Below are positions 42,978 to 50,620 of a DNA stretch of 64,000 nt, piece after piece. Positions within the stretch are counted from its first letter, which is position 1. Each line of letters begins with the position of its first letter. Where the stretch lies: positions 978,477-1,042,476 of the forward strand of contig NZ_FNBN01000001.1 in assembly GCF_900102545.1 (NCBI RefSeq), in the 5' to 3' direction. Under the pieces are notes generated by a model, which was not told where the DNA came from, did not search any database, and saw only the letters and a program-made list of their open reading frames with translations. The DNA comes from Chitinophaga filiformis (lineage in GTDB: Bacteria > Bacteroidota > Bacteroidia > Chitinophagales > Chitinophagaceae). The translations under genes and the position numbers were made by a program.

Positions 42978-43817
42978 ATGCCTCAGTTGAAAGACATAGC
43001 AACACAAATCAGACGGGATATAGTTCGTATGGTGCATGGCTGCCAAAGCGGTCATCCAGGCGGTTCTTTAGGATGTGCAGATTTCTTTACTGCCCTTTAT
43101 TTCAAAGTAATGCAGCATAAGCCGCAGCCTTTTGACATGGATGGTGGAGATCAGGACCTGTTCTTCCTTTCAAACGGGCACATTTCACCAGTATTCTACA
43201 GCACTTTAGCCCACGCAGGCTATTTTCCAAAAGAAGAACTGGCTACCTTCCGTAAACTCAATTCCCGCCTTCAGGGTCACCCTACCACCCACGAACACCT
43301 GCCAGGTGTAAGGGTTGCTTCCGGTTCCCTCGGACAGGGTATGAGCGTAGCCATTGGTGCTGCACTGACAAAAAAGTTAAACAATGATGACCGCTTCGTA
43401 TTCTCCCTCCATGGTGATGGTGAACTGGAAGAAGGTCAGAACTGGGAAGCTATCATGTTTGCTCCTCATCATAAAGTAGACAATCTCATCGTAACGGTTG
43501 ACTGGAATGGTCAGCAGATCGACGGTACAGTGGAAGATGTAGCAGGCCTGGGTGACCTGGAGCCTAAATTCGCTTCCTTCGGCTGGAAAGTGCTGCACAT
43601 GAACGGTAACGATATGGATGAAGTAGTTGCTACCCTCGAGAAAGCTGTTAGCCTGACCGGCAAGGGACAGCCTATCGTGATCCTGATGAAAACCGTAATG
43701 GGTAAAGGTGTTGACTTCATGGAAGGTCACCACGAATGGCATGGTATCGCTCCAAGCGACGAACAACTCGCCAAAGCACTCGCACAGTTACCGGCAACAG
43801 AACTGGGCGATTATTAA
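42978..43817 (+). CDS. Transketolase, N-terminal (TPP-binding) subunit
   Basis: Thiamine-diphosphate half of a split transketolase, 279 aa (a full-length enzyme is about 650). CQSGHPGGSLGCADFFTALYF, GSLGQGMSVAIGA and the TPP motif GDGELEEGQNWEAIMFA, ending NGQQIDGT, are intact. It lacks the pyrimidine-binding middle and C-terminal domains, which in split systems form a separate gene, generally next door. Here the next gene is on the other strand after a strong terminator, so the second half must be encoded elsewhere. The frame ends cleanly with no sign of a frameshift into a C-terminal half. Confidence 0.92.
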   Translation: MPQLKDIATQIRRDIVRMVHGCQSGHPGGSLGCADFFTALYFKVMQHKPQPFDMDGGDQDLFFLSNGHISPVFYSTLAHAGYFPKEELATFRKLNSRLQGHPTTHEHLPGVRVASGSLGQGMSVAIGAALTKKLNNDDRFVFSLHGDGELEEGQNWEAIMFAPHHKVDNLIVTVDWNGQQIDGTVEDVAGLGDLEPKFASFGWKVLHMNGNDMDEVVATLEKAVSLTGKGQPIVILMKTVMGKGVDFMEGHHEWHGIAPSDEQLAKALAQLPATELGDY

Positions 43818-45776: not shown

Positions 45777-47639
45777 ATGAAGACTTTTTTCAGGTTGCTG
45801 AGTTTGTCGAGGCCCTATCACCACTACATTCCGGAATATGTTGTGTATGTATTGCTTTATACCATTTTCGGCTTAATGAACTTTTCATTGCTCATTCCTC
45901 TCATGGATGCATTGTTCGGCACCGGTGGCAAACATGAAGCAGTAACGCACCTGCCCTCTTTTTCCCTGACAGCAGCTTATTTCAAAGATGTTTTCTATTA
46001 TTATCTGTCAGACCTGCTCAGACGGTATAATGGTAATAAATTCCCTGTATTGGTATATGTGTGTATCATCCTCTTCATCAGCATACTACTGAAAAACCTG
46101 TTTGGCTACCTGAGCCAGAAGGTGCTGACACGTATGCGTGTGAACATCGTACGCAAGATGAGAGAGATCGTATTTCACCAGTATACAACACAATCCCTGG
46201 GATTCTTTCACAACGAACGCAAAGGCGACCTGCTGTCTGTTCTCAGTAGTGACGTGGTAGAGGTGGAGAACTCGGTGATCACTGCGCTGCAGACTATTCT
46301 CCGTGATCCATTGGTGATTATTACCACCTTCATTGCCTTGTTCTATATCTCGAAAGAACTGACTTTTTTCACGCTGTTATTCTTTCCTATTTCAGGACTG
46401 GTTCTCAGTACCGTTTCCAAAAAGCTGAAAAAGCATTCCAACATAGGACAGAACATCCTTGGTAAAATATTGAATATCACGGAAGAAACATTATCAGGTG
46501 TACGTATCATCAAGGCGTTCAATGCCGAGAAGTTCATCAAGGACAAATTCCAGCAGGATAATGTTGCTTATGCCAATACTATTAGGGCAATGCAGAATCA
46601 GCGTGAGATGGCGTCTCCGGTATCTGAAATATTAGGTGTACTGGTGGTAATTGTGATCATGCTGTATGGAGGGAACCTGATCCTGTCGGGATCCAATGCA
46701 TTGACAGCAAGCGCCTTCATTGCCTACCTGGGTTTCTATTTTCAGATCCTGGCCCCTGCCAAATCAATCGGTACTGCCTTTACTGCTTTACCACGAGGTA
46801 TATCCGCCGGAGATAGGGTATTACGCATCATTGACCAGGCCAATACTATTGTTGATAAACCGGATGCAAAAGCACTGACTGGCTTTGAACGTGAGATCAG
46901 ATTTGACAATGTTTCCTTTTCTTATAAAGCAAATCCAACAGAAAAGAGCGTAGAACTGGGTCCGGTATTGAAGAACGTACAACTGGGAATAGCCAAAGGC
47001 CGCATGGTGGCACTGGTGGGTAAAAGCGGTGCTGGTAAATCTACCATGGCCGACCTGATTCCACGCTTCTATGATGTTACTTCCGGAAGTATCCGGATTG
47101 ACGGACAGGACATCCGTGATGTGAAAATGCATGACCTCCGTGCATTAATAGGCATGGTATCCCAGGAGGCTATACTCTTTAATGATACTGTTTTCAATAA
47201 CATCGCTTTCGGCCAGCCGAACGCTGACAGGGAAGCCGTGATCAATGCGGCTAAGATCGCCAATGCCCATGAGTTCATTGTGCAACTTGAAAATGGTTAT
47301 GATACGTCTATCGGCGACCGGGGTATGAAACTCAGTGGTGGCCAGCGTCAACGTCTGACCATCGCACGTGCTATTTTTAAGAATCCGCCCATTCTCATAC
47401 TCGACGAAGCGACTTCCGCATTGGACACAGAATCTGAAAAACTGGTGCAGGACGCACTGGACAGACTGATGGAAAATCGCACCACTATCGTCATTGCACA
47501 CCGTCTTTCTACAATTCAACATGCCGATGAGATTGTGGTACTGGATAAAGGAGAGATCAAAGAACAAGGCACACACGATCAGCTGATAGCCAACAACGGA
47601 ATATACAGGAAGCTCGTAGAGATGCAGGAGTTCAAATAG
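45777..47639 (+). CDS. MsbA-like ABC exporter (fused permease and ATPase)
   Basis: Homodimeric ABC exporter of 620 aa. Six transmembrane helices lie within about 15-340. The nucleotide-binding domain spans about 370-615 with Walker A VGKSGAGKSTMADLIPRFYD, Q-loop GMVSQEAILF, signature LSGGQRQRLTIARAI, Walker B ILILDEATSALD and H-loop IVIAHRLSTI. It most resembles lipid A/phospholipid flippases (MsbA) and related multidrug exporters. The substrate is not certain. It ends at a terminator before the glycosyltransferase gene. Confidence 0.93.
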   Translation: MKTFFRLLSLSRPYHHYIPEYVVYVLLYTIFGLMNFSLLIPLMDALFGTGGKHEAVTHLPSFSLTAAYFKDVFYYYLSDLLRRYNGNKFPVLVYVCIILFISILLKNLFGYLSQKVLTRMRVNIVRKMREIVFHQYTTQSLGFFHNERKGDLLSVLSSDVVEVENSVITALQTILRDPLVIITTFIALFYISKELTFFTLLFFPISGLVLSTVSKKLKKHSNIGQNILGKILNITEETLSGVRIIKAFNAEKFIKDKFQQDNVAYANTIRAMQNQREMASPVSEILGVLVVIVIMLYGGNLILSGSNALTASAFIAYLGFYFQILAPAKSIGTAFTALPRGISAGDRVLRIIDQANTIVDKPDAKALTGFEREIRFDNVSFSYKANPTEKSVELGPVLKNVQLGIAKGRMVALVGKSGAGKSTMADLIPRFYDVTSGSIRIDGQDIRDVKMHDLRALIGMVSQEAILFNDTVFNNIAFGQPNADREAVINAAKIANAHEFIVQLENGYDTSIGDRGMKLSGGQRQRLTIARAIFKNPPILILDEATSALDTESEKLVQDALDRLMENRTTIVIAHRLSTIQHADEIVVLDKGEIKEQGTHDQLIANNGIYRKLVEMQEFK

Positions 47640-47764: not shown

Positions 47765-49297
47765 ATGATTTCCATTATTATTCCGGTTCTGAATGAAGGC
47801 GCAACATTACGTCAGGTAATAAAAACCATCAAAAAGACAACTAGAAAGATCGAGATCATTGTGGTAGATGATAACTCCAATGATAATTCCGTTGAAGAAG
47901 CATTAAAGGAGAAAGTACGTGTGATCACCAGTAGTCAGCGGGGAAAGGGTATATCCATGCGGGAAGGTATGATGGCGGCGAAAAGTGATATTGTGATGTA
48001 TGTGGATGGCGATATTCTTACCTATCCGGACAATATTGTAGAACTGCTGACAGACCCTATTGCAGATGGTAACGCAGACTTTGTAAAATCCTATTTTGAA
48101 CGGCAGGCGGGCAGGGTTACCCAGCTGGTAGCGAAACCCTTGCTGAGTATTCTTTTCCCGGAACTGGCCGGCTTCAATCAACCGCTCAGCGGTATGATCG
48201 CAGCAAGAAAATCACTCTTGTCGCAGGTCCGTTTTGAAAATGACTATGGTGTGGACATCGGTCTGTTGATAGACATGCACCTGATGGGCGCCCGCATTGT
48301 CGAAGCTAATATCGGACGGGTAGAAAATTCCATGCAGACCTGGGAACAGTTGAGTAAGATGTCAAGAGAAGTATCCCGTACTATTCTCCGGAAGGCGGAA
48401 AATATTCCCCAGGAGAATCTTGAAACCCTGGGTAAGATCAATATTATCAGGGAGCAGATGGAGTATTCCATCCTGGAATCTATTGACAAGCTGCACAAGA
48501 TGGTCATCTTTAACCTGGACGAGGCCATCTTCGGGGAAGATTATCTCATGGCTGCCGCCAGGGAATTTGGGTTTGGTCATTCCCTGCAAAGGATCAGGGA
48601 GCATTTTGATGACCCCGCGATTGTCCTGGAGCATACGGCGACCCTGTTCCAGGACAGAAATCTCGCAGAATTGCTGGAGGTAGCGGATGCCATTCCGCTG
48701 GTGCCGGATATTAAGAGCGTAGTGAGAGAATTGAAAAAGCGGGGATATACCTGCGGTGTGATTACTGATGGCTTTGAGTGTGTGGCGCGTCATATTAAGA
48801 ATAAACTGGGGATGGATTTTGCCTTTGCGAACAAGTTGCACCTCTACAATAGTGTGGCTACAGGAGAGGTAACGATCCCGGAATACTTCCTATGTCCGGA
48901 TAAAAATATACCTTCGCAGCCCGCCGTTTATTGTAAGAGCAATATATTAACCTATATTGCAGACAAATACCACGTCACGTCACAGAACATTATTTATGTA
49001 GGCAGCGGTTCTGATGGCATACAACTACTCGAAGAAGCAGGAATAGGTGTCGCATTTGATGCAGTAAGCCCCGACACAGAAAAAGTTGCCGATAAAATTA
49101 TTCCCGGCCCATGGATGGAACCGTTGTTGCAGATAGCCCAGGCCAGTCCTGAGAGGTTTAAGCTACGCCTACCGGCGATCAGTAAGAAACAGGCAAGACG
49201 GATAGGCGTAGGCAGTCTTATCGGATTAGCGTCCGCTGGATTGTTATACTTTGCGGCCAGGCAGATCAGTAAAAGCAAGAAACCAGTGGTTTCATAA
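47765..49297 (+). CDS. GT81-like glycosyltransferase fused to a degenerate HAD phosphatase domain and a C-terminal membrane helix
   Basis: Three-part protein of 510 aa. Residues 1-215 are a GT-A glycosyltransferase: PVLNEGATL, VVDDNSNDNS (Asp35-Asp36), a DxD at Asp81-Asp83, then GRVTQLVAKPLL, FPELAGFNQPLSG and YGVDIGLLIDMHLMGA. The last three blocks resemble glucosyl-3-phosphoglycerate synthase (GpgS, GT81). Residues about 245-465 are a SerB-like HAD domain, but the nucleophile Asp is Asn250 (FNLDEA instead of F-D-x-D-G-T), and motif IV reads GSGSDG (413-418) instead of GDGxND. Thr and Lys of motifs II/III (VITDGF, CKSNIL) seem kept. A hydrophobic helix at about 480-500 with a basic end looks like a tail anchor. 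GpgS-like chemistry is inferred; the HAD part may be inactive or regulatory. Confidence 0.82.
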   Translation: MISIIIPVLNEGATLRQVIKTIKKTTRKIEIIVVDDNSNDNSVEEALKEKVRVITSSQRGKGISMREGMMAAKSDIVMYVDGDILTYPDNIVELLTDPIADGNADFVKSYFERQAGRVTQLVAKPLLSILFPELAGFNQPLSGMIAARKSLLSQVRFENDYGVDIGLLIDMHLMGARIVEANIGRVENSMQTWEQLSKMSREVSRTILRKAENIPQENLETLGKINIIREQMEYSILESIDKLHKMVIFNLDEAIFGEDYLMAAAREFGFGHSLQRIREHFDDPAIVLEHTATLFQDRNLAELLEVADAIPLVPDIKSVVRELKKRGYTCGVITDGFECVARHIKNKLGMDFAFANKLHLYNSVATGEVTIPEYFLCPDKNIPSQPAVYCKSNILTYIADKYHVTSQNIIYVGSGSDGIQLLEEAGIGVAFDAVSPDTEKVADKIIPGPWMEPLLQIAQASPERFKLRLPAISKKQARRIGVGSLIGLASAGLLYFAARQISKSKKPVVS

Positions 49298-49570: not shown

Positions 49571-50620
49571 TTATTTGCTTTTCGCCAGTTTCGCTTCGAT
49601 GCTCAGCGTAGCATGCGGTACAGCACGCAGACGGGCTTTATCGATCAGCTTACCGGTAACACGGCAGATACCGTAGGTTTTGTTTTCGATACGCACGAGG
49701 GCTTTCTCCAGGTGATCAATAAACTGGATCTGGCGGCTGGCCACCTGGTTGAGCTGTTCCCTTTCCTGGGAGCCGCTGCCATCTTCCATGCTCATGTATT
49801 TGTTTTCAGTGTCATCAGTACCAGCTTCATCTTTACGGGTAATGAGACCCTGCAGGTATACCAGTTCCTTTTTAGCTGCTTCCAGCTTTTTCAGGATGAG
49901 GTCTTTAAATTCCTGCAGATCAGCGTCACTATAACGGTAAACCGGACCGGCTGGTTGTTCCGGCTGGTCAAGAACAGATTTAGTGAACTCTGGCTGGTAG
50001 GTAACCAATGTAGTTGCTTTGCTGCCTTTTTTGTCAGTTTTTTCAGCACGTTCAGCAGGCTTTTCAGCTTTCGCTGGCGCTGCCTTTTCAGTTTTTTGCA
50101 CTTTGTCCGCTGTTTTTTTACCGGCGTCCTTTGCAACAACTTTTTCTTTATCTTCTTTATTATTCTTTACTGGCATTATTACTTCTTTTTCTTCTGGCTT
50201 GGAAATTAGTTTTACTTTATCTGCAGTAACGCTCGGCGTCACCACTTTCTTTGTATCAGGCACTTTCGCGGAAGAAGCTGCAGGCTTAGCAGTAGCTGCT
50301 GCTTTCTTTACGGGTTGCACCGCCGGAGCTGCTATGGGTGCTTTCTTTACTACAGATTTACTGGACGAAGCCGTCTGGGAAACCGTTGATTTGCTGGCAA
50401 CAACTTTCGAATTTGCAATTGGTTTGACCTGTTTGGTAGCAACTTTAGGCGCTGAACTCTTGGCGGCCGGTTTTGCCGGAGCTGCTGCTTTACTGGCGGT
50501 AGCAGGCTTAGCTGCCGCAGCCTTTTTTGCAGGCGTAATCTGCTTCGCCGGAGCTTTTTTGGCCGGTGTCGCTGCTGCCTTTTGGGTCTTCTTAATAGCA
50601 ACTTTCTTGCTTGTTGCCAT
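49571..50620 (-). CDS. DksA/TraR-like protein with a long histone-H1-like N-terminal tail
   Basis: 349 aa. Residues 1 to about 210 are low-complexity Lys/Ala/Pro-rich sequence with PAKKA-type repeats like eukaryotic H1 tails and bacterial Hc1-type proteins. Residues about 230-349 are a TraR/DksA-like domain: a long coiled-coil hairpin (LQEFKDLILKKLEAAKKEL ... QIQFIDHLEKALVRIENK) and the end YGICRVTGKLIDKARLRAVP. Only one of the four zinc Cys remains (Cys319; the others are Thr322, Ser340 and Ala343). It should bind RNA polymerase, DNA or both. It follows ileS by 4 bp, so the two are co-transcribed. Confidence 0.88.
   Translation of the reverse strand: MATSKKVAIKKTQKAAATPAKKAPAKQITPAKKAAAAKPATASKAAAPAKPAAKSSAPKVATKQVKPIANSKVVASKSTVSQTASSSKSVVKKAPIAAPAVQPVKKAAATAKPAASSAKVPDTKKVVTPSVTADKVKLISKPEEKEVIMPVKNNKEDKEKVVAKDAGKKTADKVQKTEKAAPAKAEKPAERAEKTDKKGSKATTLVTYQPEFTKSVLDQPEQPAGPVYRYSDADLQEFKDLILKKLEAAKKELVYLQGLITRKDEAGTDDTENKYMSMEDGSGSQEREQLNQVASRQIQFIDHLEKALVRIENKTYGICRVTGKLIDKARLRAVPHATLSIEAKLAKSK

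Follow-up and report, generated by a model that had tools for sequence, protein, structure and literature searches.

A GT81-like glycosyltransferase of Chitinophaga fused to a catalytically incomplete HAD phosphatase domain with a putative tail anchor

What does a glycosyltransferase do with a phosphatase domain whose catalytic site has been lost? This question is raised by a gene in a 64,000-nucleotide stretch of the genome of the soil bacterium Chitinophaga filiformis (the window), which an earlier note had read as a GpgS-like glycosyltransferase (GT) fused to a SerB-like HAD domain lacking its nucleophile. An ORF of 510 aa with an ATG start was confirmed at this locus, and the GT blocks named in that note (GRVTQLVAKPLL, FPELAGFNQPL, and YGVDIGLLID) were all present. 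HMMER alignment to Methanocaldococcus (M.) jannaschii phosphoserine phosphatase (PSP) also showed that Asn250 and the GSGSDG motif had been placed correctly and that T334 and K391 of motifs II and III are retained. The features are listed in Table 1.

Table 1. Coordinates of the gene, its domains and key residues, and the upstream neighbour in the window.
Feature	Position	Strand	Basis or remark
Whole gene, 510 aa	47765..49297	+	GT81-like synthase, SerB-like putative pseudophosphatase, and C-terminal hydrophobic helix; orthologues found
GT-A glycosyltransferase domain, residues 1-215	47765..48409	+	PDB GpgS, E 3.5e-26; Foldseek 5jqx (GpgS), E 6.4e-19
GT-A marks: DxD D81/D83, K61, GRVT 116-119, QPLSG 139-143, Y161, D164, M199			
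N188 in the GT-A domain			Position of GpgS H258
Linker helix, residues 216-240	48410..48484	+	AlphaFold helix 219-241; pLDDT block means 57-69 at residues 211-240
HAD-IB SerB-like domain, residues 241-457, catalytically incomplete	48485..49135	+	Profile, Foldseek, alignment, residue counts
Asn250 codon, aligned with D11, the nucleophile of M. jannaschii PSP	48512..48514	+	Alignment
Thr334, motif II	48764..48766	+	S or T in 66/66 tailed proteins
Lys391, motif III	48935..48937	+	K in 58 and R in 8 of 66 tailed proteins
Motif IV GSGSDG (413-418), in place of GDGxND	49001..49018	+	Alignment to PSP
C-terminal helix 474-504, Gly/Ala-rich, hydrophobic, basic flanks; putative tail anchor	49184..49276	+	AlphaFold, Kyte-Doolittle
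MsbA-type ABC transporter (ABC_membrane and ABC_tran), 125 bp before the gene	45777..47639	+	Linkage seen only in Chitinophaga

Homologues were compared by residue counts in which identical proteins were counted once and proteins of 485 aa or longer were called tailed. Left out were the incomplete rows L135 and L136, three other GTs (L081-L083), the HAD-only L120, L084 (a duplicate of L080), proteins shorter than 400 aa, and L044 (CP079103), a Chitinophaga copy of 416 aa that seems to have been cut short in its HAD half by a frameshift; L171 and L176-L185 stood outside the counts. The N-type proteins (52 distinct; 54 rows with duplicates in the dN/dS set) are defined by N250, so that N250 counts within them are circular, and the non-circular count of motif I is the one made by organism. 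A search with the family alignment gave 79 matches; loci were obtained for 30 and 20 stretches were taken, the others being read only partly for motifs. At E<=1e-60, the family alignment matched 72 of the 244 sampled genomes of the host family and 8 of 395 in the phylum sample. The 57 untailed proteins came from host-family genomes (36), phylum genomes (2), named Bacteroidota records (15), and four other sources labelled Peregrinibacteriota, Planctomycetota, Altimarinota, and unclassified (one each), although these MAG labels may be wrong.

The kinship of the N-terminal half with GT81/GpgS, claimed by the earlier note, is supported in both sequence and fold. GpgS provided the best matches among PDB chains and in the fold search (Table 1), with MpgS next among the GTs. 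A plain GT2 enzyme was rejected, since, although GT2 Pfam models do match, GpgS came out best among NCBIfam models, PDB chains, and folds alike. The NCBIfam GpgS model NF010496 scored 162.4 bits on the window protein, below its curated cut-off of 262, and 168-196 bits on three untailed relatives. The equivalents of GpgS E54, K114, D134, D136, R185, T187, Q207, L209, S210, Y229, and M269 were kept in 66/66 tailed proteins, as were R117 and T119 of the acceptor motif, which were found in 57 and 55 of the 57 untailed proteins, respectively. We take R185 of GpgS to be an acceptor-site residue alongside T187. According to the GpgS study (PMC2581804), the donor and acceptor sites are shaped by E54, K114, D134, D136, Y229, L209, S210, M269, and T187, of which T187 is the acceptor residue and the other eight have nucleotide, metal, and donor roles. 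The same study describes Glu232 as belonging to an ion-pair network, with Asp at this position in mannosylglycerate synthase (MgS), and places His258 where MgS has a metal ligand (PMC2581804). In the present family, E232 was replaced by Asp in 66/66 tailed and 56/57 untailed proteins and His258, the proposed metal ligand, by Asn in 66/66 and 53/57, respectively. It was further argued there that Ser210 in PLSG disfavours mannose (PMC2581804), and because this Ser is kept, glucose is the better guess for the donor sugar. The GT half most likely takes a hexose, for which glucose is the favoured candidate, from a nucleotide sugar and passes it to 3-phosphoglycerate or a closely similar acceptor. 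Given the E232 to Asp and H258 to Asn changes, "glucosyl" and "3-phosphoglycerate" in the pathway proposed earlier are terms that we infer.

The second half matched phosphoserine phosphatases among PDB chains (E 1.9e-16) and the HAD-IB fold in Foldseek (1l7o, E 5.1e-16, TMt 0.84), and the SerB model TIGR00338 scored 90.2 bits on the window protein, under its curated cut-off of 144. Because neither half reaches its NCBIfam cut-off, the protein is filed only as GpgS-like and SerB-like, not as GpgS or SerB. In the alignment to PSP, D11 corresponds to N250, and D13, S99, K144, D167, and D171 (numbers counted along the alignment) correspond to D252, T334, K391, S414, and G418, respectively. Both acidic residues of motif IV are thus gone from the window protein. 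The complete series of catalytic residues (D, D, S/T, K, D, D) was found in 0/66 tailed versus 53/57 untailed distinct proteins, and 56 of the 66 tailed proteins had N or E at the nucleophile position. Motif I was N-x-D in 52 of the 66, E-x-D in three, and E-x-N in one, the remaining ten being Terrimonas-type. N-x-D occurred in all 51 distinct tailed proteins of Chitinophaga (named, or with the same genus code) and in one tailed protein from a MAG labelled Flavihumibacter, and a strain mutation or sequencing error was rejected on these grounds. The intact sites that do exist belong to untailed relatives, so that the refutation foreseen in the earlier note, an intact site in close homologues pointing to a strain-specific mutation, does not apply.

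The losses differed among the tailed groups. The four Glu-type proteins all carried one genus code (g8). The ten Terrimonas-type proteins had D-x-N (4), D-x-S (4), D-x-G (1), or D-x-D (1) at motif I; the second Asp was changed in nine, and L073, which keeps D-x-D, had changes at the motif IV Asp and at the Lys. The motif IV Asp was lost in all ten (N in 9, C in 1). Asn250 is therefore fixed in tailed Chitinophaga as the earlier note had wondered, but GSGSDG is not: among the 52 N-type proteins, motif IV was DD in 20, ND in 17, SG in 11, and other in 4. Only the nucleophile was lost in 16 of the 52, and together with the varied motif IV, this suggests that the nucleophile was probably lost first and the metal site later. 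On its residues, the window protein ranks among the most degraded of the N-type proteins. The top PDB match of the HAD half, 1l7o/1l7p, is a PSP chain with N at position 11, and the title of 1l7p reads "substrate bound", implying that an Asp to Asn change can leave binding intact. Metal-assisted ligand binding is nevertheless less likely in the window protein than in those 16, since both of its motif IV acids are gone.

The untailed relatives showed few exceptions to the complete site. The motif IV Asp was replaced by Asn in L096, L097, and L112, and L113 (G035) had Leu for Lys and Ser for the motif IV Asp. In L171 (G665), the nucleophile was replaced by Glu and the motif IV Asp was lost. The separate degradation of L113 and L171 indicates that HAD loss does not need a tail. 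In the untailed proteins, the catalytic Lys closes a conserved C-x-H-x-x-C-K motif (C in 56, H in 57, and C in 57 of 57), which in homologues such as L050 and L061 is possibly a metal or redox site. In the tailed clade it was broken, with the first Cys in 0/66 and the His in 1/66 proteins by alignment column. When four proteins were scanned, the general HAD-IB cut-off was passed by two of three untailed fusions and by a stand-alone HAD, and the SerB cut-off by none of the four.

The tail itself was predicted as a helix at 474-504 in the AlphaFold model of the window protein (pLDDT 89.5, pTM 0.55), in which the low pTM makes the relative placement of the domains unreliable. The Kyte-Doolittle mean over 19 residues was 1.78 within this helix, and tail hydrophobicity was moderate (1.08-1.53) in the six Terrimonas-type proteins measured. 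The helix is a putative tail anchor that would place the tailed protein at a membrane; the AlphaFold model carries no membrane evidence.

In a tree of 72 rows, built from GT and linker columns alone and drawn with a single long row, L118, as its root, the 25 tailed rows all fell on one side of a branch with support 100/98 and grouped with untailed rows. The Chitinophaga group and the Glu group were sisters (98/89). None of the catalytic residues is missing from all tailed groups, so the HAD site was probably still complete in the tailed ancestor and was lost within the clade at least twice, perhaps three times; the sister relationship means that the Chitinophaga and Glu losses could be one event. 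The complete site in 53/57 untailed relatives, which have the same fusion, points to an ancestor that was probably a bifunctional synthase/phosphatase. The "neat one-protein pathway" of the earlier note is thus best seen in the untailed relatives, and the window protein is a derived, degenerate paralogue.

We consider it probable, with some reservation, that the gene encodes a GT81-like synthase that is anchored by its tail and carries a pseudophosphatase domain. The sequence history is well supported, whereas we infer the substrates, the activity of one half and inactivity of the other, the membrane location, ligand binding, and any partner phosphatase. In the ancestor, the phosphate would have been taken off by the SerB-like half of the same chain. 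The HAD half of the tailed proteins would no longer be able to perform the usual phospho-aspartate chemistry and would be kept for a non-catalytic job. In the simplest form, it may bind a phosphorylated ligand (the product or 3-phosphoglycerate) without cleaving it; alternatively, it may maintain the quaternary structure or keep a partner in place. Any dephosphorylation that remains would be carried out by another protein.

Selection on the two halves was compared by dN/dS. In 19 disjoint N-type pairs, the medians were 0.025 for GT and 0.055 for HAD, with a HAD maximum of 0.135 and HAD higher in 16/19. In three other tailed pairs the values were 0.058 and 0.099 (HAD higher in 3/3), and in eight untailed pairs, including one near-saturated pair (L113/L118), they were 0.068 and 0.050 (HAD higher in 4/8). 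The direction was the same when overlapping pairs were used (Chitinophaga, GT 0.034 and HAD 0.084; untailed, 0.050 and 0.047). Purifying selection still acts on the dead HAD, though less strongly than on the GT half; the domain was relaxed on losing catalysis, not freed. These results bear on a rather unlikely alternative, namely that the dead HAD is scaffold only, binding nothing and kept for fold, dimer, or linker, the phosphatase step being no longer used. The roughly twofold faster change of HAD than GT in N-type pairs, the loss of different residues in related groups, and the variation of motif IV in the N-type would all fit such a scaffold. However, 47 of 216 HAD positions were invariant in the 54 N-type rows, including 245-249 and D252 (N250 defines the group), and V247 and I248 were more uniform there than in the untailed relatives. 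Moreover, position 391 was K or R in 66/66 tailed proteins, and a scaffold alone would not obviously need N-x-D and K.

Of the 18 Chitinophaga loci examined, 16 had an MsbA-like gene 105-269 bp upstream, but no MsbA-like match was found at the other two or at any of the nine other tailed loci examined, and an operon with MsbA was thereby weakened, the link being restricted to the Chitinophaga loci examined. The exporter next door and a tail that, judging from the tree and residue counts, arose before or together with the HAD losses would suit a lipid glycosyltransferase retargeted to a membrane acceptor (e.g., a glycerophosphate-headed lipid), for which a phosphatase acting on soluble substrates would be useless. 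We regard this as improbable, given the patchy MsbA linkage and the acceptor-motif R117 and T119, which are kept in the tailed proteins as in nearly all untailed ones. That the HAD site uses other chemistry, with Asn250 deamidated or another residue taking over in a protein that is still a phosphatase or phosphotransferase, is most improbable, because, although D252, T334, and K391 survive in the window protein and 16/52 N-type proteins keep all but the nucleophile, the window protein has neither motif IV Asp and the residues lost differ between related groups (some have N or E as the nucleophile, whereas others retain it but have changes at the second Asp in 9/10 and at the motif IV Asp in 10/10 proteins); of the two options offered by the earlier note, the pseudo-enzyme is accordingly the preferred one.

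Among 26 untailed full-length loci (a 27th row, the HAD-only L120, was excluded, and Pfam domains were assigned by one representative per cluster), a Usp gene adjoined 11, a two-component pair was adjacent or separated by a single small ORF in 8, and 5 had a Na/H exchanger or CitMHS-type transporter nearby. Several live copies lay beside Usp, OmpR/HisKA, or Na/H exchanger genes. An MscS gene was found upstream of the HAD-degraded untailed L171. Downstream of the tailed L051 was a gene of the Na/H exchanger cluster, so that live copies are not alone in having a stress context. These neighbours, taken as raw counts, would fit an osmolyte or stress role. At six untailed loci (L127, L128, L130, L131, L133, and L139), a small protein of one cluster was encoded directly upstream and a Usp-cluster gene downstream; the representative of the small-protein cluster, from L131, has an RRM RNA-binding domain. 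Elsewhere in the window, the 349-aa product of 49571-50620 (-) has a long N-terminal part rich in Lys, Ala, and Pro and ends in a DksA/TraR zinc finger, and a 279-aa ORF at 42978-43817 (+) is one that we take to resemble the N-terminal half of a split transketolase.

The HAD query matched 72 of the 79 genomes of the genus Chitinophaga and had no match at all in the other seven. Nine genomes carried a stand-alone HAD of ~220 aa whose motifs I-IV all look live (9/9); one of these HADs, L148, has Asn for the His of C-x-H-x-x-C. The gene adjoined argS in 9/9, and a full live fusion was found at argS in C. skermanii and two others (L079 and L102). The nine stand-alone HADs formed one clade (99/97), grouped with the argS-linked live fusions. 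All nine genomes also had a tailed copy with N-L-D (L085 in G106, and the other eight likewise), indicating that the two paralogues retained opposite halves, the GT without the phosphatase in one and the phosphatase without the GT in the other. G671, which shares an identical argS with C. skermanii, had a live fusion and a tailed N-L-D copy. Overall, a live fusion was present in 1/79 and a stand-alone live HAD in 9/79 Chitinophaga genomes. G665 had a tailed N-L-D copy and the degraded L171, and hence no live HAD of this family.

Searches of the window genome found the tailed copy and neither a live copy of the fusion nor a separate homologous phosphatase. The idea that a live copy had decayed at argS was rejected, as tblastn at E<=1 gave no remnant in the stretch read. 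A conventional SerB acting in trans was also rejected, since TIGR00338 found this gene and one weak partial match, both below the cut-off; the best SerB match in the window genome was the dead HAD domain itself. The seven genomes with no match and the window genome with no live copy suggest that the function is dispensable or replaceable.

Several known systems offer parallels. GpgS (GT81; PDB 5jqx/4y6n) shares the GT-A fold, the DxD, the PLSG loop, the GRVT acceptor motif, and the donor-pocket residues, but its structures have neither a HAD half nor a tail, and the present family differs by H258 to Asn, E232 to Asp, and a score below the NF010496 cut-off. SerB/HAD-IB enzymes share the fold and motif order of the second half, and live relatives keep D-x-D, S, K, and GD..D; by comparison, the window protein has no nucleophile or motif IV acids, and the untailed relatives add C-x-H-x-x-C-K. 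Fusions of synthase and phosphatase, as suggested in the earlier note, are not without precedent. MgsD of Dehalococcoides is described as a bifunctional mannosylglycerate synthase/phosphatase making the sugar-glycerate from 3-phosphoglycerate (PMC8490865). Its function is the one expected for the untailed fusions, although it has a GDP-mannose donor and a live phosphatase; the likeness drawn here is one of function. GgpPS is likewise described as a fused glucosylglycerol-phosphate phosphatase/synthase (PMC10873239); it unites an osmolyte synthase and a phosphatase in one gene, with the phosphatase N-terminal and another product.

For the derived, tailed form, plants offer a parallel. Plant sucrose-phosphate synthase (SPS) has an SPP-like C-terminal domain that has been suggested to be a docking place for a separate related phosphatase (PMC4493782). 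As described there, it resembles the window protein in joining a sugar-phosphate synthase to a HAD phosphatase-like C-terminal domain, but it is eukaryotic and has no tail. A separate live homologous phosphatase in the same genome, as in the SPS arrangement, was not found in the window genome. We take the C-terminal domain of plant SPS to be catalytically dead, and its GT and HAD families presumably differ from those of the window protein. Plant FAD synthetase is fused to an inactivated FAD pyrophosphatase, a live version of which occurs in algae (PMC9678776); here too a synthase keeps a domain whose catalytic residue has been lost, although the chemistry is different. Among the literature matches listed, which were parallels only, there was no fused GpgS/GpgP or GT with a dead HAD, and no paper combined "Chitinophaga" with "glucosylglycerate" in a search mostly without subscription papers. 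The fused GT81-like/HAD-IB enzymes of Bacteroidota thus apparently represent an undescribed family.

The arrangement is real and conserved; it is neither an artefact nor a new class of system, and pseudo-enzymes fused to a former pathway partner are already known. What is unusual is the combination of live-looking relatives, different routes of inactivation, and the complementary half at another locus in the same genus. The untailed fusions are a likely one-gene route to a glycerate osmolyte. A broader account, which we offer tentatively and consider possible at best, is that bacteria independently evolved a plant-like synthase with a dead HAD phosphatase domain: a hexosylglycerate synthase/phosphatase would have been duplicated in Chitinophagaceae, one copy gaining a membrane tail and then losing phosphatase catalysis separately in two or three lineages, with its HAD half becoming a phospho-ligand sensor or docking domain, and the other shedding its GT half in nine Chitinophaga species to become a free phosphatase. 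If this is true, reciprocal domain loss has split a fused pathway again, and the window species would keep the sensor-synthase alone, its product either staying phosphorylated or being handled by an unrelated enzyme.
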